Shown here: piece after piece, positions 3,674 through 27,401 of the stretch
Position numbering within the stretch: position 1 is the first letter of the stretch
Layout of the letters: the number at the start of each line of letters is the position of its first letter
The notes under the pieces: generated by a model
The model's input: the letters and a program-made list of their open reading frames with translations, nothing else
Database searches by the model: none
What the model was told of the DNA's origin: nothing
Program-made: the position numbers and the translations under genes
NCBI GenBank assembly: GCA_031256875.1
Contig: JAIRPQ010000020.1
Coordinates: 1-32,455, forward strand
Length of the DNA stretch: 32,455 bases
Origin: Eubacteriales Family XIII. Incertae Sedis bacterium
Lineage (GTDB): Bacteria; Bacillota; Clostridia; Peptostreptococcales; Anaerovoracaceae
Reading direction: 5' to 3'

Positions 3674-6664
3674 ATGAAAAACAACAGCGGCATCAAGAAG
3701 TTATTGCTCATCATCATTTTGGCGGTAATAATAGCTATTATCGCGCTCGCGGCGCTTTCGGGCTTCATCACGGACTATCTCTGGTTCAGTGACCTGAGCT
3801 ATTCGGACGTGTTCTGGAAACAGCTGCTGACACAGCTGAAGATAGGCGTTCCGACATTCGCCGTGGTGACGCTGCTAGGCATCCTCTATCTGCGGGCGAT
3901 ACGCAGGGGCTACAAAAAGCGCGTCAGCATATCGGAAGCGACAATGGGCGACAAGGGGCAGAAGCGCGTCGGCAACGTTATGGCGGTTTTCGCGTCGCTC
4001 ATCGTCACATACATGGCGACCACGACCCTCTGGTTCAAGTCCCTTCAGTTCACCAACGCCACCGCGTTCGATATCAAGGACCCGATTTTCGGGAACGACA
4101 TTTCGTTCTACGTGTTCAAGCTTTCGTTCATCAATGAGCTGAACACCATCGTCATCGTCGCGATTGTCCTCTTCGCGCTCATCACCTTCGTCTATTATTT
4201 CTTCCTGCTCACCGTGCTGAAGCCTGTCCTGATAGACGGCGAGCCGGTGGAGGAAGAAGCGAAACCGAAGCAGCAGAACCCTGCCATGCAGGAGTTCATG
4301 CGCGCCTTCGGCATCGACATAGACGCGGGCGGCAGAAATTACTCGGCAGGGCCAAGGCAGCAAAGCTCGGCGGGAATGAAGGATCTTCTCCACATCGCGT
4401 CGAAGCAGATCACTTTCATCGGCGTCGTGTTCTTCCTCATGCTTGCGGTGTATTTCTTCCTCGCGCAGTTCGATCTGCTCTACTCGACGAACGGCGTCGT
4501 GTTCGGCGCGGGCTACACCGACGTGAACATCACGCTTTGGATGTACCGCATCGTCACCGTGCTGTCGATTATTTCCGCCATCATGTTCGGCGTGGGCCTG
4601 AAGCAGCGCAAGGTAAAGACGGCAATAATTTTGCCGATTCTCATGATAGGCGTTGGAATAGTGGGCGGGATAGCGGGGGCCGTGGTGCAGAACCTCGTGG
4701 TTTCGCCGAACGAAATCAACATGGAAGAACAATACATCGCGAACAACATCAAGTTCACGCAGGGCGCGTATGACCTCGGCGATGTGACGATAAAGCAGTT
4801 CCCCGCCGACAACAACCTCACGAGCGAGGACGTCAAGTCCAACATGGACACTATTAAAAATATCAGAATCAACGACTACAACCCGACCAAGACCTTCTAC
4901 AATAACTCGCAGTCCATCCGCCGTTATTACACCTTCAACGATGTAGACGTGGACCGTTACATGATCAACGGCGAGTATACGCAGACCTTCACGTCCGCGC
5001 GCGAGATAGACGAGTCGAAGGTTCCTCAGCAATGGATGAACCTACACCTGAAATACACGCACGGCTACGGCATCACGCTGTCGCGCGTTGACAAGGTGAC
5101 CGCGAACGGCCAGCCCGACATGCTCATCAAGAGCATACCGCCCGAGTCGCAGGTGAAGGAAATCGACATCGAGCGGCCCGAGATATATTTCGGGGAATTG
5201 CAGAACGAGTACATCATCACGAACACGGACGAGAAGGAGTACGACTATCCGGAGGGCGACAAGAATAAATATTCCACGTACAAGGGCGGCCACGGGATCA
5301 GCCTCTCACCATTCAACAAGCTCATGTTCGCGCTTCGCGAGCAGAGCATGAAGCTGCTCGTTTCGTCGAACATCGACTCCAATTCCAAAATCATCATCAA
5401 CCGCAACATCGCGGAGCGCGTTCGTCACATCATGCCCTTCGTAGACTATGCTGACCCGTATATCGTCACGGTGAACGGCAAGCTCTACTGGATTATCGAC
5501 GGCTTCACGACGAGCGACCTCTACCCGTATTCCGAGCCTATCGACATAGAGCGCATCGGCGTCGTGAACTATATCCGCAATTCGGTGAAGGTAGTAATCG
5601 ATGCGTACACGGGCGCGACCGACTACTATCTCGTGGACGGCAATGACCCTGTATCGAATACGCTGAAAGGGATTTACCCGACGCTGTTCAAGAGCATCGA
5701 CGGGCTGGACGAAAACATCAGGGCGCATATCCGCTACCCGAGCACGATGCTGAACACCCAGGCGACGATTTACAAAAAATATCACGTGAACGACATCGGC
5801 GTGTTCTACCAGGGCGAGGATCTGTGGGATATCGCGAACGAGAAGGTCGGCGCGTCCGACCGCGAAGTCCCGATGAGCCCGAACTACTATATAATGAAGC
5901 TGCCTGGCGAGGACAAGGTGGAGTTCATCAACTCTATCCCCTATACGCCGATGAACAAAGTGAACATGACCGGGCTTCTCATAGCGCGGAACGACGGCAA
6001 GCATTACGGCGAGCTGATGCTCCTGCAGCTGCCGAAGGGCCGCGTTATCATGGGTCCGAGCCAGATAGACGCGCAGATAGCGCAGGACACGCAGATATCG
6101 CAAGACTTTGCGCTCTGGCAAAATTCAGGCTCGAAATACAGCCGCGGCAATATGTTCGTCGTGCCGATAGAAAATTCCATCATGTACGTCGAGCCGATTT
6201 ATCTGGAAGCGGTGGACTCGAGCATGCCGGAGGTCAAGCGCATCATCCTCTACTATAACGACAAGATAGCTTATGAGAGCACCCTCGCGGGCGCGCTAGA
6301 CGCGATGTTTGGCACCGGTACGGGCGACGAGGTTCGTACGGGGCAGCCTGTCGGGGATGAGGGCGATGCGGATGCCGCGCCGACAGAGAGCGCGGGCGAT
6401 GCCGCGGGCGAAGGTAGCGGCATCACGAACGTGAGCGGCACGAGTCCGAGCGGCATCGTAGGCGGCTCTGAATCCGGCGCAGGCGGAACGAGCGGCGTCA
6501 TAGGCACAGAGGGCGACATCCAGCAGATGACGACGGATGAGCTGATCAAGGCCGCAGCCGCCGCCTACAACAGCGCCACCGAAGCGCAGCGCGCGGGCGA
6601 CTGGGCGAAATACGGCGAGCAGATGAAACGCCTGGAGGAGATACTGGGCAAGCTGAACGGATAA
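3674..6664 (+). CDS. UPF0182 family integral membrane protein
   Basis: Multiple N-terminal TM segments and the UPF0182-like motif FITDYLWFSDLSYSDVFWKQLLTQ. The track start (3560) is a TTG; ATG at 3674 has RBS GGAGG and is preferred. Confidence 0.85.
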   Translation: MKNNSGIKKLLLIIILAVIIAIIALAALSGFITDYLWFSDLSYSDVFWKQLLTQLKIGVPTFAVVTLLGILYLRAIRRGYKKRVSISEATMGDKGQKRVGNVMAVFASLIVTYMATTTLWFKSLQFTNATAFDIKDPIFGNDISFYVFKLSFINELNTIVIVAIVLFALITFVYYFFLLTVLKPVLIDGEPVEEEAKPKQQNPAMQEFMRAFGIDIDAGGRNYSAGPRQQSSAGMKDLLHIASKQITFIGVVFFLMLAVYFFLAQFDLLYSTNGVVFGAGYTDVNITLWMYRIVTVLSIISAIMFGVGLKQRKVKTAIILPILMIGVGIVGGIAGAVVQNLVVSPNEINMEEQYIANNIKFTQGAYDLGDVTIKQFPADNNLTSEDVKSNMDTIKNIRINDYNPTKTFYNNSQSIRRYYTFNDVDVDRYMINGEYTQTFTSAREIDESKVPQQWMNLHLKYTHGYGITLSRVDKVTANGQPDMLIKSIPPESQVKEIDIERPEIYFGELQNEYIITNTDEKEYDYPEGDKNKYSTYKGGHGISLSPFNKLMFALREQSMKLLVSSNIDSNSKIIINRNIAERVRHIMPFVDYADPYIVTVNGKLYWIIDGFTTSDLYPYSEPIDIERIGVVNYIRNSVKVVIDAYTGATDYYLVDGNDPVSNTLKGIYPTLFKSIDGLDENIRAHIRYPSTMLNTQATIYKKYHVNDIGVFYQGEDLWDIANEKVGASDREVPMSPNYYIMKLPGEDKVEFINSIPYTPMNKVNMTGLLIARNDGKHYGELMLLQLPKGRVIMGPSQIDAQIAQDTQISQDFALWQNSGSKYSRGNMFVVPIENSIMYVEPIYLEAVDSSMPEVKRIILYYNDKIAYESTLAGALDAMFGTGTGDEVRTGQPVGDEGDADAAPTESAGDAAGEGSGITNVSGTSPSGIVGGSESGAGGTSGVIGTEGDIQQMTTDELIKAAAAAYNSATEAQRAGDWAKYGEQMKRLEEILGKLNG

Positions 6665-8746: not shown

Positions 8747-8977
8747 ATGACTACTGCGAAATTGTTCGCGAACGGGCAAAGCCAAGCTGTGCGTCTGCCG
8801 AAAGAATACCGTTTTAGCGGCAGCGAGGTGTATATCAAGAAAATCGGGGATGCCATAATACTTTTCCCAAAAGGCAAGGAGTGGGATATGTTCCTAGACG
8901 GCCTTGCCGGGTTCAGCGATGACTTCATGGAAAATGGACGGAATCAAGACCAATCGCAGGAAAGGGAGTCCTTCTGA
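8747..8977 (+). CDS. vapB: Antitoxin, VapB/AbrB-type (SpoVT-AbrB fold)
   Basis: MTTAKLFANGQSQAVRLPKEYRFSGSEVYIKKIGDAIILFPKG is VapB-like; ATG at 8747 preceded by AGAGGT. Confidence 0.88.
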   Translation: MTTAKLFANGQSQAVRLPKEYRFSGSEVYIKKIGDAIILFPKGKEWDMFLDGLAGFSDDFMENGRNQDQSQERESF

Positions 8978-9408
8978 TGTATATGCTGGACACAAATATC
9001 TGCATTTTCGCAATCAAAGGGGCAAAAACCGAAATGTATGGGCATATCTCCCGCGCATTGGGCGAAAAACGCGCGGAAGGCCTTTGTATATCGTCCATCA
9101 CGCTTGCGGAGCTTGAGTTCGGGGTCGCCAACAGCTCATCTCCCGAAAAAAATGCCGTTGCGCTGATGAATATCCTGTCTGTGCTTGAAGTGATGCCTTT
9201 CGAGGAAAGCGCCGCTGCGGAATACGGGAAGATACGCGCCGAACTGCAGCGCACAGGGCGCGTGATTGGCTCGCTTGACATGCTGATAGCGGCACATTCA
9301 AAAGCCTGCGGATGTATTCTCGTGACAAACAACACCCGCGAATTTAAGAGGGTAGAGAATCTTGTCGTTGAGGACTGGTTTATGGATATCGCAACGCCGC
9401 AGGGATGA
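8977..9408 (+). CDS. vapC: PIN-domain ribonuclease toxin, VapC family
   Basis: MLDTNICIFAIKG, ISSITLAELEFGV, IGSLDMLIAAHSKACGCILVTNNTREFKRVENLVVEDW; acidic PIN residues present; abuts the antitoxin stop. Confidence 0.93.
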   Translation: MYMLDTNICIFAIKGAKTEMYGHISRALGEKRAEGLCISSITLAELEFGVANSSSPEKNAVALMNILSVLEVMPFEESAAAEYGKIRAELQRTGRVIGSLDMLIAAHSKACGCILVTNNTREFKRVENLVVEDWFMDIATPQG

Positions 9409-10002: not shown

Positions 10003-11196
10003 TTATTCGTACCGCAGCGCGTCGATGGGGTGCATCATTGCCGCCTTGCGCGCGGGGTACAGTCCGAACACGATTCCGATGAGCGTCGAAAACGCGGTCG
10101 CCGCGAGCAGGACTCCACCCGACAGGCTGTATGTCATCTCGCCGCCCGACACGTTGTTGACAATCATGAGGATTATCCAGGAGCATGCTATGCCGATGGC
10201 GCACCCGAGCAGGCAGATGACGAGCGACTCCACGAGGAATTGCAGGAGTATGCCGCCGCGCCGTGCGCCTATGGCTTTGCGTATCCCGATTTCGCGCGTG
10301 CGTTCCGTCACGGAGACCAGCATGATGTTCATGATGCCGATGCCGCCGACGAGCAGGGATATGGCCGCGATGCCGCCTAGCAGCAAGGTGAACGTGCTTG
10401 TGACGCTCGCCATCGCGTCCGCTATCGTGCTCATGTTCATGACGTAATATGAATCGCTGTCGCCAAACCTCGCGAGGAGCGCACTCTCGATAATGGCCTG
10501 CGCCCGCTCGATGGAGTCCGCGCTCTTTGCCGCCGCGTAGAAGCTGCTGATGCCGCTGGATTCTTCGGCGATGCGCGACGCGACCGAGTACGGGATATAG
10601 ACGGGGTACTGTTGTGCCATATACCCCGAGCTGGTCGACTCGTCCTCGGCCAGCACGCCCACCACGAGATATTTCCTGCTGTCCATCGTCATAGTCTGTC
10701 CGAGCGCCGCGTTCGCGTCGCCGTAGATTTTCTCGGCGGCGCCATTGCTCAGCACCGTTACATAGGACACGTTGTCCACGTCGGCCGAGAGCAGCGTGCG
10801 CCCCGTCACCATCTTGTCCTCGCTCACGCTTCCGTCTATCAGGAAGTACGAGCCGGTCGTGCCCGTGACGCTCACGGATATAGTGTCCGTGCCGCTGCGA
10901 ACAGTGCCCTGCGACTGCGTGATGGGCGCGACCAGCGAGATGCTGTCGTCCGCTGCCAGCTCCGCCAGGTCGGAAGTTTTCAGCGGCTTGCCCTTGTCGT
11001 CCATGATGTTGACGGTCAGGCGGTCGGTGCCTATCTGCGCGATGCTGTTCTGCACGGAGCTGGTCGCGCTCGTCACGAGCGAGATGAGAACGACCAGCGA
11101 CATGACGCCGATGATGATGCCCAACATGGTCAGGAAAGCGCGTGTCTTGTTCGCGAAAATCGACGTGAACGCCATCCTTACGGATTGTAGAATCAT
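10003..11196 (-). CDS. ABC transporter permease, MacB/FtsX type
   Basis: MILQSVRMAFTSIFANKTRAFLTMLGIIIGVMSLVVLISL ... GGIGIMNIMLVSVTERTREIGIRKAIGARRGGILLQFLVESLVICLLG ... YPARKAAMMHPIDALRYE. Confidence 0.96.
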   Translation of the reverse strand: MILQSVRMAFTSIFANKTRAFLTMLGIIIGVMSLVVLISLVTSATSSVQNSIAQIGTDRLTVNIMDDKGKPLKTSDLAELAADDSISLVAPITQSQGTVRSGTDTISVSVTGTTGSYFLIDGSVSEDKMVTGRTLLSADVDNVSYVTVLSNGAAEKIYGDANAALGQTMTMDSRKYLVVGVLAEDESTSSGYMAQQYPVYIPYSVASRIAEESSGISSFYAAAKSADSIERAQAIIESALLARFGDSDSYYVMNMSTIADAMASVTSTFTLLLGGIAAISLLVGGIGIMNIMLVSVTERTREIGIRKAIGARRGGILLQFLVESLVICLLGCAIGIACSWIILMIVNNVSGGEMTYSLSGGVLLAATAFSTLIGIVFGLYPARKAAMMHPIDALRYE

Positions 11197-12053
11197 TGCC
11201 TGCCACCTCCTTTTTCCGATCGCTTGCCCATATGCGAATCTCCCGCGCCGCCCGAATCCTCGCTGGTGCCGGAGCTACCGCCCGAATCCCAGCCGGCACC
11301 GTAGCTGCCGCCCGAACCGCTGCCGCCCGAACCGCTGGCACCTGAACTCTCGCCCGAGCCTAGGCCCGCCGGCTCGCCGCTGTCGCTCACTATCCTGCCG
11401 TCCATAATGCTGACCGTGCGGTTCGCCAGGGACGCTATGCCCGCGTCATGCGTGATGAGCACGATGGTCTTGCCCGCACGGTTCAGCGCGTGGAAATGCT
11501 CCATGATTTCCTTGCCCGTATGCGAATCGAGATTGCCAGTCGGCTCGTCCGCGAGTATGAGCGAGGGGTCCGTCACGACCGCCCGCGCGATGGCGGCGCG
11601 CTGCTGCTGCCCGCCCGAAATCGTGTTCGGCCTATGCTTTCTGCGGTCGGTCAGCCCGACCAGCGCGAGGGCTCGCTCTACAAGCTCTCTGCGGACGGCG
11701 GGCTTGATTCCGAGATAGACGAGCGGCAGCTCCACATTGTCCTCTATGCTCATGCGCCCGATGAGATTGAAGCTCTGAAAGACGAAGCCTATCTTGTGTC
11801 CGCGCACGGACGCGAGATCGTTTTCGGTGTAATAGTCTATGGGCTGGCCGTCGAGCCGGTATGTCCCTTCCGTTGCGATGTCCAGGCAGCCCATGATGTG
11901 CATGAGTGTCGACTTGCCGCTGCCCGATGGCCCTACCACGCTCACGAACTCGCCCTCGCGTATGTGTAGGTTCGCCCTGTCCAGAGCGCGGACTTCCTCT
12001 CCGCCTACGCCGCCCTGATTATATATCTTTGAAACATTCTCAAATCTTATCAT
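11193..12053 (-). CDS. ABC transporter ATP-binding protein, MacB/LolD-type, with C-terminal Gly/Ser-rich tail
   Basis: Walker A GPSGSGKST, signature ISGGQQQRAAIARA, Walker B LILADEPTGNLD; overlaps the permease by 4 bp. Confidence 0.96.
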   Translation of the reverse strand: MIRFENVSKIYNQGGVGGEEVRALDRANLHIREGEFVSVVGPSGSGKSTLMHIMGCLDIATEGTYRLDGQPIDYYTENDLASVRGHKIGFVFQSFNLIGRMSIEDNVELPLVYLGIKPAVRRELVERALALVGLTDRRKHRPNTISGGQQQRAAIARAVVTDPSLILADEPTGNLDSHTGKEIMEHFHALNRAGKTIVLITHDAGIASLANRTVSIMDGRIVSDSGEPAGLGSGESSGASGSGGSGSGGSYGAGWDSGGSSGTSEDSGGAGDSHMGKRSEKGGGRQ

Positions 12054-15190: not shown

Positions 15191-16162
15191 TCACGGGCTT
15201 ACGGATATGCTCCAGCGGCGGCGGCATTCCCCGTGCGCCGCCAGCGCCACCAGGTTTTTCTGCGAACCCAGCTCCTCGACTATGCCGTCGCGCGAGGGCA
15301 GCGATGTCCACGGCTCGATGCAGACGAAGGGCGCATCGGTGTGCGGCGTGTGCCAGAGCGCCAGATATTCCATGTCAGGGTAGGCTATATCAATGCGTCC
15401 GGTGCCGCTGCTGCTTCTTCTCAGCGAAACCAGGCCGCCCGTGTTCTCCAGCACGATGGCGTCGTCGTCGAAAAGGCTGTGCCGAAGGTTCACGCGGCCG
15501 TCTTGCAGAGGGAAAGCGGCCCTGCCGTCCGTCGCGAAGCGCTGTGGCGACATTGCTATCCGCGTGACGCGCTCCGCGTTCGGGAACTCGATGAAATAGT
15601 CCTCAAAGGTTTCGCCTTCGCGCAGCGGAACGCGAAACCCGGGATGCCCGCCCAGCCCGAAATACATCGCTTCGCCGCCCAGGTTTTCGACGCGGTATTC
15701 GATGTGCAGCCGATGGGCGTCCAGGCGGTAGCGGACTTCTATCCGAAAATCGAAAGGGTATTGCTCCTTCGTCGTCGCGCTGCTCTCTAGGCGGAACGCC
15801 GCCTCGTGCGCCGATGCGGAGACTACCGTCATTTCCGAGTCCTTCAGGAACCCGTGAATGTCCATGCGGTATCTGCGCCCGCGATGCTCATACGACCCTT
15901 CCGTGAGTCTGCCGATATAGGGGAACAGATGAATGGCCCTGTCCGCCCAGTACCTGGCATCCCCCTGCCAGATATACTCGGTGCCGCCCGCGCCGTCCGC
16001 GCCCTCTCCCCGCACCGTGCCGCCCGCGCCCTCCTCCCGCACCGCGCCTACCGCGCCGCCCGCGCCGCCGATGCGGTATATGCTTCGGATTTCCGCGCCT
16101 AGGTTCGATAAGGCCACGCGGAGCTCGTCGTTTTGGAGGATGACATCAGGCAGCTTAGTCAT
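15191..16162 (-). CDS. Aldose 1-epimerase family protein (LacX-like)
   Basis: Start MTKLPDVILQNDELRVALSNLGAEIRSIY (ATG at 16162, 4-bp overlap with upstream gene); EYIWQGDARYW, HLFPYIGRL, GLGGHPGFRVPL. Track start 16495 rejected. Confidence 0.88.
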   Translation of the reverse strand: MTKLPDVILQNDELRVALSNLGAEIRSIYRIGGAGGAVGAVREEGAGGTVRGEGADGAGGTEYIWQGDARYWADRAIHLFPYIGRLTEGSYEHRGRRYRMDIHGFLKDSEMTVVSASAHEAAFRLESSATTKEQYPFDFRIEVRYRLDAHRLHIEYRVENLGGEAMYFGLGGHPGFRVPLREGETFEDYFIEFPNAERVTRIAMSPQRFATDGRAAFPLQDGRVNLRHSLFDDDAIVLENTGGLVSLRRSSSGTGRIDIAYPDMEYLALWHTPHTDAPFVCIEPWTSLPSRDGIVEELGSQKNLVALAAHGECRRRWSISVSP

Positions 16163-17220
16163 AGCGCGCCTTGGTTTTCCTCTCTCCATTCCCTCACAAT
16201 CTCCACCATGTCCAGGTATTTTTCGGTAGGCACATAGTCGGGTATGGAGTTCCCCGAGCCGAAGGCGAATCCGCCATGGCCGATGCATTTCGATATCACT
16301 TCCAGTATGTATTCCTTCAGCTCTTTCCTGTCGAGCGATATCACCATGTCGGTGTCTATCCCTCCGAAATTTCCTATGCGGTCGCCGTAGCGTTCCACCC
16401 ATTCGGGGAAGGGCGCTATCTGATCCTCGTTCGAGTGCTTCGCGTCTATGCCGGCGGCTATCAGGTCTTCCATCACGGGGAAGATGGAGCCGCATGAATG
16501 CAGGAGAAACGGCTTGCCCGCGCCATGCACGAGGTCGATGATTCTCTTGTGCGCGGGTATGACGTGCGTGCGGATGTCGTCCGGCGGCAGCAGTGGCGCC
16601 GTCCTGAATCCGAGGTCGTCACCAAACCGGCAGACGCAGAACGCGTCGCCAAACTCCGCGAGGAACCTCGACCATATCACGGCTGCCACATCGCTCACCT
16701 TCCTGAACAGCTCCGCGTACAGCTCGCTGTCGTCGGCCCTGATATAGCAGAGCGTCTCGTAGCCCGTGAGGTCTTGCACCGTCTCGAACACGCCGTTGCC
16801 GACGCCTCCGACGGCCTTCATCCCCTGCGGCAACGCATCCCGCAGCGCGGCGAACTGCGGGAAGTATTGGGCGCAATAGATGTCTGGCAATTCGTCCCAA
16901 GGGTAGTCGTCAAATTCCTCGCGGTTTTTTACGGCCCCGATATTGTGCTTGTAGAGCGCGCCGCCCCGCGGCAGCGTCGCCGTGATATTGCCCTCGTAGA
17001 TAGCCGTGTCATAGCCCATCTTGCGAAAAAATTCGCAGTAATTTCGGAAGAACTCCAGCCTGTCCGCTTCGTCGCCGTCCGCCAGGGCGCCGAACGGCCT
17101 GCCGAGAATCTTCTCCATATGCGAGACGTCTATGATGTGCTCGTACAGCGGGAGACGTGCCGGCTCGATATTGCGGGCCGCGTTCACGACATTCTCAAAG
17201 TCCGGTTCAAAATGTTTCAT
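16159..17220 (-). CDS. Uroporphyrinogen decarboxylase-fold family protein (not HemE), copy 1
   Basis: LLHSCGSIFPVMEDLIAAGIDAKHSNEDQ and the GGFAFGSGNSIPDYVPTEKYLDMVE C-terminal segment; 353 aa. Confidence 0.87.
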   Translation of the reverse strand: MKHFEPDFENVVNAARNIEPARLPLYEHIIDVSHMEKILGRPFGALADGDEADRLEFFRNYCEFFRKMGYDTAIYEGNITATLPRGGALYKHNIGAVKNREEFDDYPWDELPDIYCAQYFPQFAALRDALPQGMKAVGGVGNGVFETVQDLTGYETLCYIRADDSELYAELFRKVSDVAAVIWSRFLAEFGDAFCVCRFGDDLGFRTAPLLPPDDIRTHVIPAHKRIIDLVHGAGKPFLLHSCGSIFPVMEDLIAAGIDAKHSNEDQIAPFPEWVERYGDRIGNFGGIDTDMVISLDRKELKEYILEVISKCIGHGGFAFGSGNSIPDYVPTEKYLDMVEIVREWREENQGAL

Positions 17221-17331
17221 TTAATACCTCTCCGCGTGAAGGTGCATTGCGATGGCGTTTTCGACCGGCACGTCGATGTTCAGCATATTGCACGTGGACA
17301 GCACGAAACCGGTCCTGTCGTATGATATGAT
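17221..17331 (-). pseudogene. C-terminal remnant of a third UroD-family gene
   Basis: Minus-strand translation after an in-frame stop: IISYDRTGFVLSTCNMLNIDVPVENAIAMHLHAERY*, matching the C-terminal VPxENxxAM segment of copy 2; its TAA abuts the ATG at 17220. Too short for the ORF track. Confidence 0.7.
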
Positions 17332-17366
17332 TTATGGTCAACTTATCCAACGGTTTCCTATATCCT

Positions 17367-18065
17367 CTAATCTGCGCACATTTCATTCAACAGATTATAT
17401 TCATTGCAGAGAATCCATCGTAGCTCTTCATCCTCTTCAATATAGGTAAATCGTGAAACCGGTTCCGCAAAAAAGTTGTCAGTCATATCGTTATTGATTG
17501 AAGATATTTCGCCGATTATTGACGGCTCGCTATTATCCGCACATCCGAAGGAGTGCAAGAGGTATGGATGCAATGTAATGCTGTTACCATTCGTGATATG
17601 AAATGGCGCACCCGCTTCGACTTCGTGGAGCATACCATCTCTGTAAACCCGAACTGGAGACTCCGTATCGGGATTGCCGCCTGGTGTTATGTTCCAAAGG
17701 CGAATCTCGAATGCGCCACCAGACCTGCTGACGATATCTTCACTTTTTGTTTTATGCATGTGTATTGGCAATCTTTGTCCGGGTTCTAATACTATGATTT
17801 TTTCAGCATAGGGTGTTCCTATGTTTCTGTTATCAATCAAGCCGTTGCGAATAGTGAATAAGACTGCGCCGAGCTTGTGGAAATCTCCATTTCCGAAATC
17901 GGTCACATCCCATCCCAACATTGTTTTTGTGATGGAATCAATCTCATCAATATGCTTTATCCACATATCAATATCCCAATATGCAAACCTAGGCAGCATA
18001 AATCCGTTTTGTCTTGTTTGTTCCAACGAAAATGCGATGGCAGACTGTATTTCCGATCTCTTCAT
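17367..18065 (-). CDS. D-lyxose/D-mannose isomerase family protein (cupin)
   Basis: LGWDVTDFGNGDFHKLGAVLFTIRNG, YAEKIIVLEPGQRLPIHMHKTKSEDIVSRSGGAFEIRLWN; cupin metal-binding pattern HMH..K..ED. Confidence 0.82.
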   Translation of the reverse strand: MKRSEIQSAIAFSLEQTRQNGFMLPRFAYWDIDMWIKHIDEIDSITKTMLGWDVTDFGNGDFHKLGAVLFTIRNGLIDNRNIGTPYAEKIIVLEPGQRLPIHMHKTKSEDIVSRSGGAFEIRLWNITPGGNPDTESPVRVYRDGMLHEVEAGAPFHITNGNSITLHPYLLHSFGCADNSEPSIIGEISSINNDMTDNFFAEPVSRFTYIEEDEELRWILCNEYNLLNEMCAD

Positions 18066-18106
18066 AAACTTTCCCCCTTTATTTTAAAATGTGCAGTTTC
18101 CATTTA

Positions 18107-19201
18107 TTAATCATTTGCGGCCTCGCTCATTGCCAGCACATTTTCGAGAGGGACATTCGCAAGCAGCGCTTCGTGGCTTGGCGACACGATATAGTTTTCG
18201 CCAAATATATCGCGTAGCCTATGCACTGTATCCTTTACCTCCTGCGGTGTTCCGAATGTCAGCAAATCCTGTGTATCAACTCCGCCCATGAATATGATAT
18301 CCTTGCCGAATTCACGGGCGAGCCTATCCGGTTCCATACCTATTGCTTTTGCCTGGATTGGATGTAAGCAGTCTATTCCAAGGTCAATTAGCTTTGGGAT
18401 CAGTTCATATATCGAACCACAGGAATGTATGGTTACCTTCAATCCGTAGCTTTTCATTTGGTCGATTATCTTCTTTGCATATGGCGCGATAAATCTGTCG
18501 AAAAATTCTGGGCTGATTAGGCATGCCGCCTGGCTTCCGAGGTCGTTCCCGAAGAAAGCGCTTGTCAATTTGTCGCCCACAAGATCGAAATACAATTTGT
18601 TTGACTCCAAATAAAAATCCGTAATATGGTCTGTCACCGCCTCGACGACCTTAGGGTCTGTATACATTTTCATAAAGTATTCTTCCATGCCGAAAAAATC
18701 GCACGCAATATGGAAAAAGCAGCACCACATCCCTCCGAGGACGGCTAGATCCATCTCTTCTGCCTTCTTTATTTTCTCAATATTAGATGAAAAATCCAGA
18801 TATTCTGTTGAAGGCCAAGGGAATCTGTCCACCTCGGCCACATCCGTTGTTTCGGAAAACACACCGGGGTCATTGAGGCTAACGCGTGCTCTCCCTCCAA
18901 GCACATCGAATATGGGCTTGCCTTCAGGATGCTTCCATGAAAGAAAATCGAGTTCAGGCGAAAGCCATATTAAATCACTCTTTAGCGTCTGCGCCAAAAG
19001 CATGTCCGCTTTTCCTATCTTTTCCGATGTTAGTACGCTTAATGCCGCATAATGTTTTTCTTCTTCCGTCAGTACCTCTTTTTCTATTCCGAAATGCTCT
19101 AGATATATATTCTTTGCATCTTCTGATGGGTTTCCTATCCAAAAACCACTGTTTCCTGCTTTTCTGTTGTAGATAGAGTTAATCAGTTTCGATCCTTTCA
19201 T
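18107..19201 (-). CDS. Uroporphyrinogen decarboxylase-fold family protein (not HemE), copy 2
   Basis: VTIHSCGSIYELIPKLIDLGIDCLHPIQAKAIGMEPDRLAREFGKDIIFMGGVDTQDLL ... NYIVSPSHEALLANVPLENVLAMSEA. Confidence 0.9.
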   Translation of the reverse strand: MKGSKLINSIYNRKAGNSGFWIGNPSEDAKNIYLEHFGIEKEVLTEEEKHYAALSVLTSEKIGKADMLLAQTLKSDLIWLSPELDFLSWKHPEGKPIFDVLGGRARVSLNDPGVFSETTDVAEVDRFPWPSTEYLDFSSNIEKIKKAEEMDLAVLGGMWCCFFHIACDFFGMEEYFMKMYTDPKVVEAVTDHITDFYLESNKLYFDLVGDKLTSAFFGNDLGSQAACLISPEFFDRFIAPYAKKIIDQMKSYGLKVTIHSCGSIYELIPKLIDLGIDCLHPIQAKAIGMEPDRLAREFGKDIIFMGGVDTQDLLTFGTPQEVKDTVHRLRDIFGENYIVSPSHEALLANVPLENVLAMSEAAND

Positions 19202-19239
19202 GTCTCATCCTCCGTTTTCTTTGTAGGTTCCATTAGGTT

Positions 19240-22200
19240 CTAGTTTCGTATCGACAAGAGGAACGACTTGATTTCGTTTCCTCTGAAGCAGATATCTGAA
19301 CACTCCATACGCGATAACGGACGAAGTGGATTTTGAAGAATATCTGACTCCGTTATGCCGTCCACCGATGCGGGTAGAAGGAGCGCTGCATTAGCGGGAG
19401 CTCCGCTTGTTTCCATTGCCGTTATTGCAATCTGCTTCCCGTCGTGCGAAGGTTTTATGCTTGTGATGAGCACGTGGTCACTCTCCATTCTTATGCCGTA
19501 ATCCCACAGAGCGCAGTTGCCCTCTACGGCGACCAATGGGCAATTGACGGACATTGCGTCACGTTGTACTGATGATAGCGACAGTGTGCCGTAGTATGGC
19601 TGGATGGCACATCGACCGGATACCTCTCTTCGGTCCGGTGCCGCGTCAGGCGAATATGAGCCACGAACTAAGGTCATATCAATTTGTGGGCCTGCTACGC
19701 GAAAACCGTGTTTGTTGTCATTAAACAGCGCTACAGACATATTTTCTCCAGCCAAAGCCACATACCGCAATGAGGGGAGTTCAGTTGCCTGTTTTTCGCG
19801 GGAAATGCTCCCCATAGGAGTTTCATAAATATATTTTGGATTATTAACTGCGGTGCTGAATCCCAGCCTTAGAACAGGAATGCCGGTTTTGTGATGCCCC
19901 AGTTCATTCCAGTCCAGGTTGAAATGGATATCCACACGAGCCAAATCATCATACAGGGTAATGTCTTCCGTGAATGTTGAAGCATTATATTTTCGTGTGA
20001 TACGAATTTGTGAAAGCACGGGCCCGTTCTGAGTGACTTTTACCTCGGGAGAATCTATCAGATAGTGTAACGACATCTCGTTTCCCAGAACCCATGCAGA
20101 CATAATATGTGGCTCTTCATATATCATCTTCAGAATCCCCGAACTTCGTTGTGCATTGAATGCGCTTGGCACCTCAGCAAACCCCGTCATATGTTCCAAT
20201 ACGTCGCGCCCTGAAATCTCATCGCGCAAGGTCACTATTGTGCCTGTGCGTGCGCTTATTTCCAGCAAGTACCGTTTGCTGCGCAAGCTGTGGACACTTC
20301 CATCATCATGGCATGAGCCCAGCGCCAGAGGCATAGGGCAGGGAGGGGTGTCGAGTGCTTCCAAAGAATAGTGCCTTGACGATAAGCCCTGCATATTGTC
20401 TGCCACGAACATGACCCTGTTGCCTGATATTTGTCCGATGCTGGTGCCTCCATCCCAGCGCAGCGCAATGGATTCCGGAGAATTTGGCGGCAAAGGGGCT
20501 GAAACTATGTCGGTTCGCTCAAACGCTAATGAATTGAACACGGTTATCCCGTCGTTGCCATCTATCCTTAGGCTTTTTTGCAGCACTTTGTCGGCAGAAG
20601 CAATGGCTTCACCGCCTATTTGAAAATTGTAGCTGTCAGCCGCGTGAATATTGCAGCCACATGCTATATCATGGAAGCCATTAAAGCAGATTTTGCGCCA
20701 TGATTCATTCAAAAGCTGTGACTCCTCTGTGGTATCATTTCCGTTGAGCATGTTGAGGGCAGCCGCCGCCTGCGCGTCGCAAAGGCGCGCGTCGCCATCC
20801 CTCTGCATTTTTTTAATCGCTGCCTTCGTGGTATAACAGCCTTCAAATATAAATCCCTGCTCTCCTTTATATATGGGCCAGTCCTGTTTTTCGGCGAGCA
20901 CTTCGTCAAAAAAAGCGCATACCTTTGAAAAAACAAGTTTCGGCAAACCCGGTTTGCTGTCCAAATAGCGTTTGATGGATATATCCCTGCGGGTTGGCCC
21001 GCCGCCATGATCGCCTACGCCGAATACAAACATGCTGGTATGGACACCGAAACTATCTAGGAATTCATTGGCTGCGGAGATTACGTTTTCCGGACGCAGC
21101 GCGTTATTGTATGGTCCAAAACAGTAGTCAAGCAAACGCGAGCCATCTGTGCCCTCCCACCATTTCAATGCATGTCCTTCCGCATTGCAGCGGAAATGAT
21201 AATAGTAGCTTACTCCCGCTTTGGTAAGCAGGTTTGGCACTGTAGCAGGATGCCCGAACGTATCGGGCTCCCAGCACACGCGCGAAGGTGGGGCATGCAA
21301 TACGTTTTGCGAATAGCGCGAGGCTTGAAGCAATTGCTGTATGAATGTTTCGCCCGAAGATGTATACAAGTCATGTTCAGACCACGTTGCGGCAGTTACT
21401 TCCCAGCTCCCCTCGGCAATCTTCTCCAATACACGCGAAAAAGTCTCTGGGTCGTTTTGTTGCACAATATCATAGACGCAAGACTGGCTCTGGGAAAAGC
21501 ATAAATCCGGATTTTCATCCATCAGTTTGACAATTGTGCGAAAGTCGCGCACACATATATCTTTCGTTTCATCATAGTTCCATAACCAGTTCATATCGAT
21601 ATGAGAGTGTGCAATCAAGTGTACTTTGAATTGTTTCGCAGCGCAATCAATCTTCTCCAGTATAGTATCGATTGCAGCCAAGTCAGTTTTGATAATTTCC
21701 CAGTCTCTATTGTGAACTGCTTCCGAATGCAATGCGTCATTCATTTCGCTAAGCGCCTCGCAGATTTGGGGAAATCCAAAATCGGCGAGCTTCTGTGCGA
21801 ATCTCAATTGGGTTATCGCGGTGGAAAGCTCCAACATCCGCTGCTCCAAAACTTCGCAATTTATATAGACACCTAGATGCGCATCCCCTTCTCCTTGCGG
21901 GGTTTTAAATACCACAGTGTGTGTTGCGCCTCTTTTGTACCGCGGAGTGACGGTTATTTCACACGGCCTGCTGTCGCCCCAATATTTATATGAAGCAACA
22001 TGCTTTCCGTCAATATGGATATCCAGCGGTGCCAACATAGTCATCGTTATATAAATTTTTGTTCCCTCAGTCGGGATGCCTTCGATGTATTCTGGCAGCG
22101 CGATGCGTTTTCTCATTGCCGCGGGACCATCTACCATAGACCAGTCACACGGTTTCAAGTTTTCGCTATGGTCATTGGCGGTGCCAGAATTCACGTTGAT

Positions 22201-22377
22201 GCCGTTGATGGGAGCGCCTTTTCCGATTACGTTCTCCCAGCCGGAATCGTCATAGTCTGGCATTTCGCATCCGCGTATGTCACCCTGAAAAAAGGTGCAT
22301 ATACCCGGTAGCCCCGCAGATGAAATCTTCTTTATTATATCGTCTGCGTATTCAATCCATAAACGATAATTCTCCAT
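19240..22377 (-). CDS. Alpha-mannosidase, glycoside hydrolase family 38
   Basis: Zn-binding HLIAHSHIDMNWLWNYDET; nucleophile region WEPDTFGHPATVPNLLTKAG. ATG at 22377 (MENYRLW) with AGAGGAA RBS preferred over 22476, which overlaps the upstream gene. Confidence 0.95.
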   Translation of the reverse strand: MENYRLWIEYADDIIKKISSAGLPGICTFFQGDIRGCEMPDYDDSGWENVIGKGAPINGINVNSGTANDHSENLKPCDWSMVDGPAAMRKRIALPEYIEGIPTEGTKIYITMTMLAPLDIHIDGKHVASYKYWGDSRPCEITVTPRYKRGATHTVVFKTPQGEGDAHLGVYINCEVLEQRMLELSTAITQLRFAQKLADFGFPQICEALSEMNDALHSEAVHNRDWEIIKTDLAAIDTILEKIDCAAKQFKVHLIAHSHIDMNWLWNYDETKDICVRDFRTIVKLMDENPDLCFSQSQSCVYDIVQQNDPETFSRVLEKIAEGSWEVTAATWSEHDLYTSSGETFIQQLLQASRYSQNVLHAPPSRVCWEPDTFGHPATVPNLLTKAGVSYYYHFRCNAEGHALKWWEGTDGSRLLDYCFGPYNNALRPENVISAANEFLDSFGVHTSMFVFGVGDHGGGPTRRDISIKRYLDSKPGLPKLVFSKVCAFFDEVLAEKQDWPIYKGEQGFIFEGCYTTKAAIKKMQRDGDARLCDAQAAAALNMLNGNDTTEESQLLNESWRKICFNGFHDIACGCNIHAADSYNFQIGGEAIASADKVLQKSLRIDGNDGITVFNSLAFERTDIVSAPLPPNSPESIALRWDGGTSIGQISGNRVMFVADNMQGLSSRHYSLEALDTPPCPMPLALGSCHDDGSVHSLRSKRYLLEISARTGTIVTLRDEISGRDVLEHMTGFAEVPSAFNAQRSSGILKMIYEEPHIMSAWVLGNEMSLHYLIDSPEVKVTQNGPVLSQIRITRKYNASTFTEDITLYDDLARVDIHFNLDWNELGHHKTGIPVLRLGFSTAVNNPKYIYETPMGSISREKQATELPSLRYVALAGENMSVALFNDNKHGFRVAGPQIDMTLVRGSYSPDAAPDRREVSGRCAIQPYYGTLSLSSVQRDAMSVNCPLVAVEGNCALWDYGIRMESDHVLITSIKPSHDGKQIAITAMETSGAPANAALLLPASVDGITESDILQNPLRPLSRMECSDICFRGNEIKSFLLSIRN

Positions 22378-22405
22378 GTTGTTCCTCTCGTTTATCATTC
22401 GACAT

Positions 22406-23896
22406 CTATATGGCACTTTGAAGCAATAATTCTTGTGTGGCATCTTCATTATTGATTTCAGCGTTAATTCTGCCACGTTTCATTACATATATTCTGTCAC
22501 ACATAGTCAGTATCTCAGGCATTTCTGAAGATACTATAATCACCGCAATGCCGCGCCGTGTCAACTGGTCAAGAATAGTGTATATTTCCGCTTTTGCCCC
22601 AATGTCGATCCCGCGCGTCGGTTCGTCTACGATCAATACTTTTAGATCCTCCTTTATCAAGGAGCGCGCGAGTATGACTTTTTGCTGATTGCCGCCAGAC
22701 AGTTTTTGAATAAGCTGAGTTACGGATGGGGTTTTGATGCCAAGCCTATTTACCATGTCGTTGACGCTCGTTAGCTCTTTGCGCCTTTTTATGCCATTGA
22801 ACCTCACGAAATTTTTTATTGTAGAAATAGTCATGTTGAATTTTATGCTCGCATCGCCGAATATGCCTTGTTCCTTTCGATTCTCCGGTACGTACCCGAT
22901 GCCCGCCTGCTTTGATTCACGTGTGTCGTTGCGCTTTAGCTCAATGCCGTCCACTATAACCTTGCCTACGAGACGTTTGTCCGAACCAATGATTGCTCGC
23001 GTAAGCTCAGTACGTCCTGCTCCCATCAGTCCTGAAAACCCGACTATTTCTCCAGAGCGTACGTTGAACGAAATATCTTTGACGTGATAACTGGTCAGCC
23101 CCTGCACATCAAGCATTACATCGCCTATGCTGCCGCCCTGTTTTGGATAAAGATCCGATAGTTCCCGTCCCACCATCAAGGAAATGATTTGTTGCTGCGT
23201 AGCATCGCTTGTATTGATTGTGTCCACATATTTCCCATCCCTTAATACGGTGATTCGGTCAGTGGCCTTAAGAATCTCCTCAAGCTTATGTGAAACATAT
23301 ATGATGCCACAGCCCTTTGCCTTTAAGTCTTTGATTATGCGGAAGAGATTATCGATTTCCGATGGACTAAGCGCAGACGTAGGCTCATCCATTATGATCA
23401 CTTTTGTATCAAGCGAAATCGCTTTTGCAATTTCGACCAGTTGCTGTTTTGCTACGGGCAATTTTTTCAGCAAAGTACGCGGATCTTCGGATAATCCTAT
23501 ATAGTCCAGCAGGATTTTCGTGTCTTCATACACTTTCTTCTTATTTACAATTCCTGCTCGATACGTGGGCAGATGCGAGAAATAAATATTTTCCGCGATT
23601 GACATATTGGGAACAAGGTTTAATTCCTGGTATATCACGCTTATGCCTTTGTTTATGGCCTCATTCGGGTTCCTGAATGTCACTACCTCGTTCTCAAACC
23701 GCATCTGTCCATCAAAACCATGGTATATCCCAGCGATAATTTTTATTAACGTGGATTTTCCCGCGCCATTTTCGCCAACGAGCGCGTGGACTTCTCCTTT
23801 TCGTAAATCGAATTTAACTTTATCAAGTGCGTGCACTCCGGGAAAATATTTTGAAATGCCTTGCAGGTCAAGCCAACAATCATTTGCAGTGCCCAT
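22406..23896 (-). CDS. Sugar ABC transporter ATP-binding protein (RbsA/MglA type, two ATPase domains)
   Basis: GENGAGKSTLIKIIAGIY, VIIMDEPTSALSPSE, GLMGAGRTELTRAIIG, LSGGNQQKVILARSL, VLIVDEPTRGIDIGAKAEIY. Confidence 0.96.
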   Translation of the reverse strand: MGTANDCWLDLQGISKYFPGVHALDKVKFDLRKGEVHALVGENGAGKSTLIKIIAGIYHGFDGQMRFENEVVTFRNPNEAINKGISVIYQELNLVPNMSIAENIYFSHLPTYRAGIVNKKKVYEDTKILLDYIGLSEDPRTLLKKLPVAKQQLVEIAKAISLDTKVIIMDEPTSALSPSEIDNLFRIIKDLKAKGCGIIYVSHKLEEILKATDRITVLRDGKYVDTINTSDATQQQIISLMVGRELSDLYPKQGGSIGDVMLDVQGLTSYHVKDISFNVRSGEIVGFSGLMGAGRTELTRAIIGSDKRLVGKVIVDGIELKRNDTRESKQAGIGYVPENRKEQGIFGDASIKFNMTISTIKNFVRFNGIKRRKELTSVNDMVNRLGIKTPSVTQLIQKLSGGNQQKVILARSLIKEDLKVLIVDEPTRGIDIGAKAEIYTILDQLTRRGIAVIIVSSEMPEILTMCDRIYVMKRGRINAEINNEDATQELLLQSAI

Positions 23897-23920
23897 CTAA
23901 AACTCTCCTTTTCTGATATT

Positions 23921-24919
23921 TCAAAGAGATGCCTGCGACTCTTTGAGTAACCGGATGTCCGCGCTTTGTTTTCTCCGCACGTCTATATAGACAGCTATTA
24001 TAATCACCGTCCCGCGCACGATGTCGTGATAAAACGTATTTACGTCCATTAGCACAAGACCATTTTGCAAAACTCCGAGGATAAGGACGCCTATAATAGC
24101 TCCCGTGAGGCTTCCGATGCCTCCATTCAAGCTAACTCCGCCCAGGATGACTGCCGCTATAACGGTCATCTCCATGCCTACACCGGCAATGGCTTGGCCG
24201 GAATCAAGCCTAGATGTCAAAATGATGGCGCTGATTGAGAACAGTATATTGCCGATGACAAAGACCTGTAGCTTGATTCGGGAAACACTCAATCCCGCGA
24301 GTGCGGAGGCTTCTTTGTTTCCGCCAACAGCATAGATGTATCGCCCGAATGCAGTATTGTTTAAGACGAAATAGAATGCAGCAATCAGAAAAATTACAAT
24401 CAGAAGAGGCGTCGGGAATATCCCAATACTGCCCATGCCAATTTCAGAAAACCCCTTTACTTTGATGGGTTGCGAGACGGCTTGTGTTATAACCATTATT
24501 ACGCCCCTGAAAATGGCCATCGTGCCGAGCGTAGCTATCAATGAATTCAATTTCAGTTTTGTTACCAGAAAACCGTTTAATAGTCCGGCAGAGCATCCCG
24601 CACCCAAAGTCACGATGATGCCAACAAAGATATTCCCAGTGTAATTCATCGCCATTACACCAAGAACACCGGCAAATGCCTGCAGCGAGCCCACCGACAA
24701 GTCTATCTCGCCGGAAAGTATGATCATTGTCATGCCAATAGCGGCAATCATGCTCGGCGATGCCTGGCGTAGAATATTCATAATATTATTCGGCGTAAAA
24801 AAGGCGGGTGACAAAATAGACAATACTATGCCTATCGCAATAAGCGCAATCAGCAGCCCGCTTTGATCCATTTGCAGCAGTCCGAAAAAAGAGTTCTTTC
24901 TTTTGGCCAGTTGGTTCAT
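23921..24919 (-). CDS. Sugar ABC transporter permease (RbsC type)
   Basis: RQASPSMIAAIGMTMIILSGEIDLSVGSLQAFAG; TVIAAVILGGVSLNGGIGSLTGAIIGVLILGVLQNGL. ATG at 24919 (MNQLAKRKN) preferred. Confidence 0.94.
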   Translation of the reverse strand: MNQLAKRKNSFFGLLQMDQSGLLIALIAIGIVLSILSPAFFTPNNIMNILRQASPSMIAAIGMTMIILSGEIDLSVGSLQAFAGVLGVMAMNYTGNIFVGIIVTLGAGCSAGLLNGFLVTKLKLNSLIATLGTMAIFRGVIMVITQAVSQPIKVKGFSEIGMGSIGIFPTPLLIVIFLIAAFYFVLNNTAFGRYIYAVGGNKEASALAGLSVSRIKLQVFVIGNILFSISAIILTSRLDSGQAIAGVGMEMTVIAAVILGGVSLNGGIGSLTGAIIGVLILGVLQNGLVLMDVNTFYHDIVRGTVIIIAVYIDVRRKQSADIRLLKESQASL

Positions 24920-24997
24920 ACTAATCACTCCATTAATATTACATTGGTATTTTACGTCAGGCGACCGAGGCATCATGCAGGTAGCCTGACGTATTAA

Positions 24998-26086
24998 TTA
25001 TTTCAGCAAGGCTTCGACAGCATCAAAATCCAATATCCAAGCATCGCCCTCTTGCGTATAGAAATCGCCATACGTTTCTTTTGTTACCATTGTGGTTGGC
25101 GTGAGATAGCGCTCAGGCAAATCTTCCCCTGCTACTGCTTTTTTCGATGCATCAACGATACATGCCCCAACGAAATCAGGGAACATGGCCAGCTCAGCCA
25201 CTATTGGAGTATCGTCTTGCAAGGCTTCTCTGCCGACTACGCCTTCAAGCCCATACCCAACTGCGCTAAGCTTGGAGGAATCTAACCCCGCAGCCTTATA
25301 TCCTTGAACACCGCCTTGCGTAGAATCGTCATTGATTCCAAAAATCGCATTAATATCAGGATTTGCGGTACAGGCATCGGTCGCGCCTTGGAGCGCTTTT
25401 TCTTTTCCGCCCTGTGAGTCTATTTCCTGTTCGATAGAGTATTTCGCGCCGGAAGCCTCAAGCCCCTCCTTGAACCCTTCAACGCGAAGGCGGCAATCTT
25501 CAAAATTAGGGAATCCGACGAGCAGGAATTTCAAATCTATGTTGTTGTCTTTTCCGTAGTTGCCAAACCATTCGCCTGCCTGTTTGCCCGCGCCTTTATT
25601 GTCTGCGCCCACACAAGTATATTCACCGCCTACGGGATTGGATTCCGTGATAACGATAATGCCAGCATCTTTGGCTTTTTCAATAACAGGTCCTAATGTG
25701 GTTGCGTCTACGGGCGTCAATGCGAGTACGTCAACACCTTTTGCAATAAAATTCTCGGCAAAAGATATTTGTTGTGACGAGTCTTGGTTTGCATCAGCAA
25801 TCTCCAGGGTGATACCGAGTTCTTCTGCTCTGCGTTTTGCGCCATTCGTGACATTTTGATACCACTCATGGCTCATAAAATTGCAAACATAGCCGATTGT
25901 GAAGCTGGTCCCGTCCGTAGACGCAGGTGTTTGTGTGTTTTCCGCATCCGCAGCGCCATCGGCAGTCTCGGTGGTGGCCGCGCCGTCGTCCGTACTTCCC
26001 GCGTCGCCGCCCCCGCTGCTGCATGCCGCAAGCATCACGGCTGCCATCATTATGCACAGTGCTATAACAAATAACTTCTTCTTCAT
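24998..26086 (-). CDS. Sugar ABC transporter substrate-binding lipoprotein (RbsB/periplasmic-binding type)
   Basis: Lipoprotein signal MKKKLFVIALCIMMAAVMLAACSSGG; IAENFIAKGVDVLALTPVDATTLGPVIEKAKDAGIIVIT. Confidence 0.94.
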   Translation of the reverse strand: MKKKLFVIALCIMMAAVMLAACSSGGGDAGSTDDGAATTETADGAADAENTQTPASTDGTSFTIGYVCNFMSHEWYQNVTNGAKRRAEELGITLEIADANQDSSQQISFAENFIAKGVDVLALTPVDATTLGPVIEKAKDAGIIVITESNPVGGEYTCVGADNKGAGKQAGEWFGNYGKDNNIDLKFLLVGFPNFEDCRLRVEGFKEGLEASGAKYSIEQEIDSQGGKEKALQGATDACTANPDINAIFGINDDSTQGGVQGYKAAGLDSSKLSAVGYGLEGVVGREALQDDTPIVAELAMFPDFVGACIVDASKKAVAGEDLPERYLTPTTMVTKETYGDFYTQEGDAWILDFDAVEALLK

Positions 26087-26137
26087 ATCGCTTCCTCCTA
26101 AATCTCCTGAACCCTACAACTATTGATCTACGCTTCT

Positions 26138-26148
26138 TTTTCCGAAAA
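26138..26148 (-). promoter_or_regulatory. Candidate ROK-regulator operator upstream of the sugar-importer operon
   Basis: TTTTCGGAAAA on the minus strand, about 50 bp upstream of the SBP start; identical 11-mer at 27570-27580. Confidence 0.4.
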
Positions 26149-26198
26149 CCGATTATTACAAACCAGCGCACTGCCGGCATGTTCCGTCTCTGCTGTGC

Positions 26199-27401
26199 CT
26201 AGCCCTTGAAAATCCGCCTGTATACGAGCGCTACCCCGCCCATTGCTTCCGTGTTGCGCTTCAGCGCGGGGCTGTAGATGTCGATATCCTGGCTGTGCCC
26301 GGGGTAGGGGCGTCCGTGTATGTACTGCCTTACGCTGTCCACGAAGGTCGGTGAGTAGTCGGGTATGTCTCCGGTCAGCACGATGGTGTCGGGACCCACG
26401 CTGACGATGAGGTTGCTGAGCGCGATGGCGACGTATCTGGCGCAGGTGAGCAGCTCGACGCGGAAGGCTTCTTCGCCGCTCTCGGCGCGGTCCAATATCT
26501 CCCTGAGCGTGAGCGCGTCCACGTCGGCTATGCCGCATTCGCGCCGTATGGCATCGTCGGTCTTGAGCTTCGACTTGACGCGCCGCAGCAGCGAGCGCCC
26601 GTCCGCGACCGTCTCCAGGCAGCCGTAGTTTCCGCAGGCGCACTGCCTGCCGTTGATGTCCACGACCATATGCCCGATTTCCCCCGCGCTGTTGCCATAG
26701 CCGTGGAACACCTTCCCGTCTATTACCACGCTCGCGCCGATGCCCGTGTGGTAGACGCCGCACGCGACGAGCACCTTCGATGCCTTGGCTTTCCCGAACC
26801 AGTTCTCGCAGAGCGCGGAAGCCGCGGTCTCCTTTTCAAACTCCACGGGTATGCCTATCTGCTCGCCCACGATGGCCTTGAGCGGCACATCATGCCAGCC
26901 CGTGAGGTTCGGGGGATTGATGATAAGCCCGTTTTCCACGTCGATGGGCCCGGGCGTCACCAGCCCTATCCCGTGTATCTGCTCCTTCGCGACCCCCTGC
27001 CCGTCCATTATGGACTTTATGGAGCTGACGATTTTCTCGATGACCGCATCCTGCGCCGGTGCATCGCCCATGTCTATATGCATCTCGTCCAGCAGCCGAG
27101 CCTTGAAGTCGGTGATGACGATGTATATCGCCGTGGCGGTCAGGCTCACGCCGATGATATTGCCCGCGTTCGGGTTCAGAGAGAGCAGCGCCGCCTTCCT
27201 GCCGCCGTTCGATTCCTCGTGCCCGCTTTCGACTATGTAATTTTGCTCGATGAGTTCGTTTGCGATATTCGTGATGGAGGGGGAAGTCAGCCCCGTCTTT
27301 TCGGCGAGATCCTTCCGCGATACGCTCTCGCCCTCGCGTATGAGGTCAAATACGAGCCGCGTGTTGTTCCGTTTCATTCTGGCGCTGTCGATGCGTTTCA
27401 T
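26199..27401 (-). CDS. ROK family transcriptional regulator (NagC/XylR/Mlc type)
   Basis: N-terminal wHTH NNTRLVFDLIREGESVSRKDLAEKTGLTSPSITNIANELIEQNYI; ROK Zn motif CACGNYGCLETV. Confidence 0.95.
   Translation of the reverse strand: MKRIDSARMKRNNTRLVFDLIREGESVSRKDLAEKTGLTSPSITNIANELIEQNYIVESGHEESNGGRKAALLSLNPNAGNIIGVSLTATAIYIVITDFKARLLDEMHIDMGDAPAQDAVIEKIVSSIKSIMDGQGVAKEQIHGIGLVTPGPIDVENGLIINPPNLTGWHDVPLKAIVGEQIGIPVEFEKETAASALCENWFGKAKASKVLVACGVYHTGIGASVVIDGKVFHGYGNSAGEIGHMVVDINGRQCACGNYGCLETVADGRSLLRRVKSKLKTDDAIRRECGIADVDALTLREILDRAESGEEAFRVELLTCARYVAIALSNLIVSVGPDTIVLTGDIPDYSPTFVDSVRQYIHGRPYPGHSQDIDIYSPALKRNTEAMGGVALVYRRIFKG

Follow-up and report, generated by a model that had tools for sequence, protein, structure and literature searches.

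Introduction

Gene remnants at the edges of horizontally replaced operon segments are a known general phenomenon, common in bacterial genomes. The remnant described here, located in a window of 32,455 nucleotides (contig JAIRPQ010000020.1, positions 1 to 32,455) from an Eubacteriales Family XIII. Incertae Sedis bacterium, resembles them in having a truncated end at a compositional boundary and in keeping the start signals of the gene downstream; by comparison there is nothing unusual about it, neither repeats nor a mobility gene having been seen at the junctions. The parent gene belonged to a subfamily, referred to here as UroD-A, of the URO-D / MtaA-CmuA superfamily (Pfam PF01208). The zinc ligands of MtaA/CmuA-type methyltransferases are of the form His-x-Cys ... 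Cys.

Two relatives from other genera of the family serve for comparison. The best full-length relative of the remnant is the 359-residue UroD-A of genome G387 (C9:37524-38600), the C-terminus of which reads ...YDKKGFILSTCNMLNMDQPVENVLSLHMRAQKY followed by the stop: a reciprocal search with this protein matched the remnant to residues 325-359 of 359 at 57% identity, including the invariant STCN stretch, although the G387 gene is full-length and placed before an isomerase gene rather than before the gene termed here UroD-like 1. The other is a sugar operon of genome G383 (contig C80), which carries the substrate-binding protein, permease, ATPase, GH38 and UroD-like 2 genes in the same order as the window, with identities of 77, 82, 74, 57 and 78% respectively, but which has about 64% G+C, continues with a ROK gene plus a different isomerase (47%), and includes neither a UroD-A nor a UroD-like 1 gene that could be recognised.

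Position and Frame of the Remnant

Translation of the minus strand of 17221-17334 gave IISYDRTGFVLSTCNMLNIDVPVENAIAMHLHAERY between two stop codons, the 36 sense codons (17331-17224) being closed by a TAA at 17223-17221 and directly preceded on the 5' side by an in-frame TAA at 17334-17332, while the ATG of UroD-like 1 at 17220 abuts the closing TAA. Coordinates, in-frame stop and TAA/ATG abutment thus all agree with those given in the first-pass annotation. The remnant (17221-17331, minus strand) is taken to comprise the last 35-36 codons plus TAA of a UroD-A gene, homology being apparent from the Tyr codon at 17322-17320, and hence corresponds to around one tenth of such a gene (36 codons as against about 359). 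With stop codons just upstream and no complete (beta/alpha)8 barrel with its catalytic residues it is not a working enzyme, and by itself most likely yields nothing of use. Within it, 6 nt 5' of the UroD-like 1 ATG, the sequence GGAGAGG (17227-17233, minus strand) is a likely Shine-Dalgarno element for that gene.

Homology with the UroD-A Subfamily

Pfam and NCBIfam searches with the 36-mer alone returned no family at E <= 1, PF01208 included, the query being short for such general models, and a custom profile built from five UroD-A proteins from other genomes was therefore run against the 784 six-frame segments of the window. The remnant was matched at E = 1.1e-10 over profile positions 310-343 of 343, as expected of a C-terminal end of the superfamily, and still at E = 8.8e-7 when G387, the closest relative, was removed from the profile. 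The other matches in the window were UroD-like 2 (5.9e-39) and UroD-like 1 (8.5e-18), and the best non-UroD segment scored E = 2.4. This region of the profile could also be aligned to a solved uroporphyrinogen decarboxylase, 3cyv, where it falls in the C-terminal part. This similarity, running to the last profile position, together with the reciprocal G387 match, upholds the earlier proposal that these codons formed the C-terminal end of a third gene of the UroD family. That proposal had relied on an alignment by eye to UroD-like 2, a match that is weak (6/10 residues, E = 0.004) beside the one to the other subfamily, in G387 (57-59%). Judged by sequence, the remnant is a real C-terminus of a UroD subfamily to which neither UroD-like 1 nor UroD-like 2 belongs.

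When 351 genomes of the family were searched with the 36-mer, the one strong match outside the window was in G387, in the closing part of an open frame of 385 codons (E = 6e-12; 59% over 34 residues). All other matches of the G387 protein in the remnant's own genome were distant paralogues (23-28%), and neither a full-length UroD-A orthologue nor the rest of the gene was found in that assembly; in a draft of 161 contigs that is 76% complete, this absence is weak evidence. Among 399 genomes from across the phylum none gave a UroD-A match at E <= 1e-40, but this sample contains no positive control and says little. Remnant and G387 differ at 7 first, 6 second and 19 third codon positions, indicating that their divergence built up mostly while the sequence was coding.

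A cysteine in an STC/ATC context is present in the remnant and in all five UroD-A proteins, the TCN cysteine being invariant in those five, whereas UroD-like 1 (GSGN) and UroD-like 2 (SPSH) lack a C-terminal cysteine and both keep HSCG. The His-x-Cys position of UroD-A reads HSC in G387 and HSD in the other four proteins, and the alignment to MtaA 4ay7 stops short of the C-terminal cysteine. From these motifs, the surviving paralogues and the lost STCN type may have differed in chemistry. The UroD family is greatly expanded in both comparison genomes, with 20 matches in G387 and 21 in G383.

Composition and Content of the Adjoining Segment

The G+C content of the window falls from about 60% to about 44% at the remnant junction and returns to about 61% near 26162, delimiting a low-G+C cassette of about 8.8 kb (~17335-26160) between G+C-rich flanks. 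All of the genes concerned lie on the minus strand. The cassette begins with a D-lyxose isomerase family gene (17367-18065; PF07385, E = 2.7e-76; GC3 0.44), followed by UroD-like 2 (18107-19201) and a GH38 alpha-mannosidase family gene (19240-22476), both assigned by Pfam search, and a sugar ABC transporter (ATPase, permease and substrate-binding protein; 22406-26086) named from sequence and G383 synteny. The flanks are represented by UroD-like 1 (16159-17220; PF01208, E = 1.2e-16; GC3 0.77) and, beyond the cassette, by a ROK-family regulator gene identified by Pfam search (26199-27401; GC3 0.82). Across the cassette genes GC3 was 0.44-0.52, as against 0.77-0.82 for UroD-like 1, the sugar kinase and ROK. 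The remnant, with a GC3 of 0.76 (28/37 codons), was close to UroD-like 1 (0.771; p = 0.85) and clearly separate from the isomerase (0.435; p = 9e-5), which ends at 17367 in another frame, 35 nt away.

The composition change is thus abrupt at both cassette edges, as in horizontally replaced operon segments. On the remnant side the raw G+C change point was broad (17164-17326), so that fine placement of the breakpoint rests on GC3 and on the end of homology; these place it at 17323-17366 (minus strand), an AT-rich interval with in-frame stops that separates the end of the isomerase from the first remnant codon to show conservation. The breakpoint had previously been proposed at this spot, and it is indeed just upstream of the remnant that the base composition shifts. 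The other end of the block was placed at 26155-26255 (change point 26162), close to the ROK gene stop, in one of three ranges tried, the other ranges giving 25880-26235. No exact repeat of at least 9 bases is common to the two junction regions, six-frame translation of 26081-26230 inspected by eye revealed no UroD-A 5' remnant at the far cassette end, and scanning the junction for promoters and terminators gave hits at chance level only.

The distribution of the cassette is patchy: beside the syntenic set of G383, the best UroD-like 2 matches in G001, G003 and G387 reached 39-42% only, and none was found in G002 or G004 at E <= 1e-40, all in drafts 58-87% complete. A donor for the cassette was not found; the syntenic block known from G383 has 64% G+C. 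The composition of the cassette fits neither its own genome nor that relative. The closest relatives found for the isomerase were in G387, beside the intact UroD-A (55%), and in a different family of the same class (57%), a pattern that we read as genes for isomerase, UroD and sugar transport moving as a group whose internal order changes. A common origin of isomerase and remnant as neighbours, suggested by their relatives standing side by side in G387, was set aside, the order being reversed and GC3 different. In G387 (L111), two D-lyxose isomerase family genes (5676-6356 and 10615-11304) plus three UroD genes occur within about 7 kb. In the window itself, the open reading frame at 8977-9408 is by eye a candidate PIN-domain (VapC-like) toxin of a toxin-antitoxin pair.

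Ancestral Gene Order

The abutting TAA and ATG had been read as the mark of an ancestral, translationally coupled pair, and the ribosome-binding site within the tail adds to that reading, as does G003, a genome of the same genus, in which a gene resembling UroD-A (48% across 29 residues of the remnant tail) likewise directly adjoins a further UroD gene, with its last stop base at 10130 and the ATG at 10129 (L032). Taken together, these features suggest that an ancestral UroD-A/UroD-like 1 pair would have been coupled. The comparative part of the proposal is borne out only in part: an intact third UroD gene in this position was looked for in relatives, and neither an intact nor a recognisable UroD-A directly upstream of UroD-like 1, nor any relative with the pre-replacement state, was found in 60 UroD-like 1 loci or in the genomes of the same genus. 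Other genes stand there instead. Neighbours varied among the 60 loci, a few of which (L063, L077 and L086) had UroD genes of other types upstream, and in G003 the place is taken by a DNA methylase-like gene; sampling near the source genome is thin, with one same-genus genome that has a UroD-like 1 orthologue. An ATGA overlap at 16159-16162 joins the UroD-like 1 stop to the start of a downstream aldose-epimerase-like gene, which suggests coupling on the downstream side too.

Origin of the Remnant

We consider it probable that an older operon lost its front to the incoming cassette and that the remnant is the surviving 3' end of the UroD-A gene of that operon, likely carrying the UroD-like 1 ribosome-binding site. 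A UroD-family (MtaA/CmuA-like) gene would once have stood immediately before UroD-like 1; the lower-G+C block of isomerase, UroD-like 2, GH38 mannosidase and sugar ABC transporter would then have displaced everything between the ROK regulator and a site within that third UroD gene, the last codons of which were retained, probably as carriers of the start signal. The location of GGAGAGG would explain why the tail survived. The profile and reciprocal matches, the pattern of codon differences, the GC3 values and the patchy distribution of the cassette speak for this reading. Against it count that neither a donor nor a genome in the earlier state was found, that the raw G+C change point is broad, and that the junctions showed neither repeat nor mobility gene.

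It is rather unlikely that the cassette was already present and that an internal deletion simply removed the first nine tenths of the third UroD gene, in which case the step in composition would mark an older boundary between isomerase and UroD-A. The isomerase is intact and only 35 nt from the remnant, and an isomerase and an intact UroD-A adjoin in G387, but in the reverse of the window order (UroD-A, then isomerase); moreover, two events, a transfer boundary and a deletion edge, would have to coincide at one spot. Misassembly, in which the contig of this metagenome-assembled genome would join pieces of different genomes and leave an intact UroD-A on an unassembled piece, is decidedly improbable: although a draft of this fragmentation and completeness invites the suspicion, and sharp composition steps are typical of misjoins too, the contig would have to be misjoined twice, near 17.3 and near 26.2 kb, each time beside a gene end, and it is unlikely that both misjoins would leave one same-strand, functionally coherent sugar operon. 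In addition, a search of the other contigs returned no full-length UroD-A orthologue.

There is very little to recommend a further reading in which the short frame persists as a translated leader, the gene fragment having been recruited to initiate translation and to couple UroD-like 1 to the translation of the newly arrived upstream genes. The abutting TAA/ATG, the well-spaced GGAGAGG inside the tail and the similarly abutting UroD genes of G003 would all suit it, but stop and start would abut in any case as the legacy of an ancestral gene pair, relatives of UroD-like 1 are widespread without the short frame, and no start signal for that frame was identified. Replacement of the operon front remains the best explanation of a remnant that is real and was correctly recognised in the first-pass annotation.

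Significance

One edge of an operon-replacement event would thereby be pinned to about 45 bases, and the sugar operon of this bacterium would have been assembled from parts of different origin. The value of the finding is local, lying in a correct annotation of the locus and in a caution that the UroD paralogues of the locus have different histories; as a trace of operon reshuffling the remnant is clear but of an ordinary kind.
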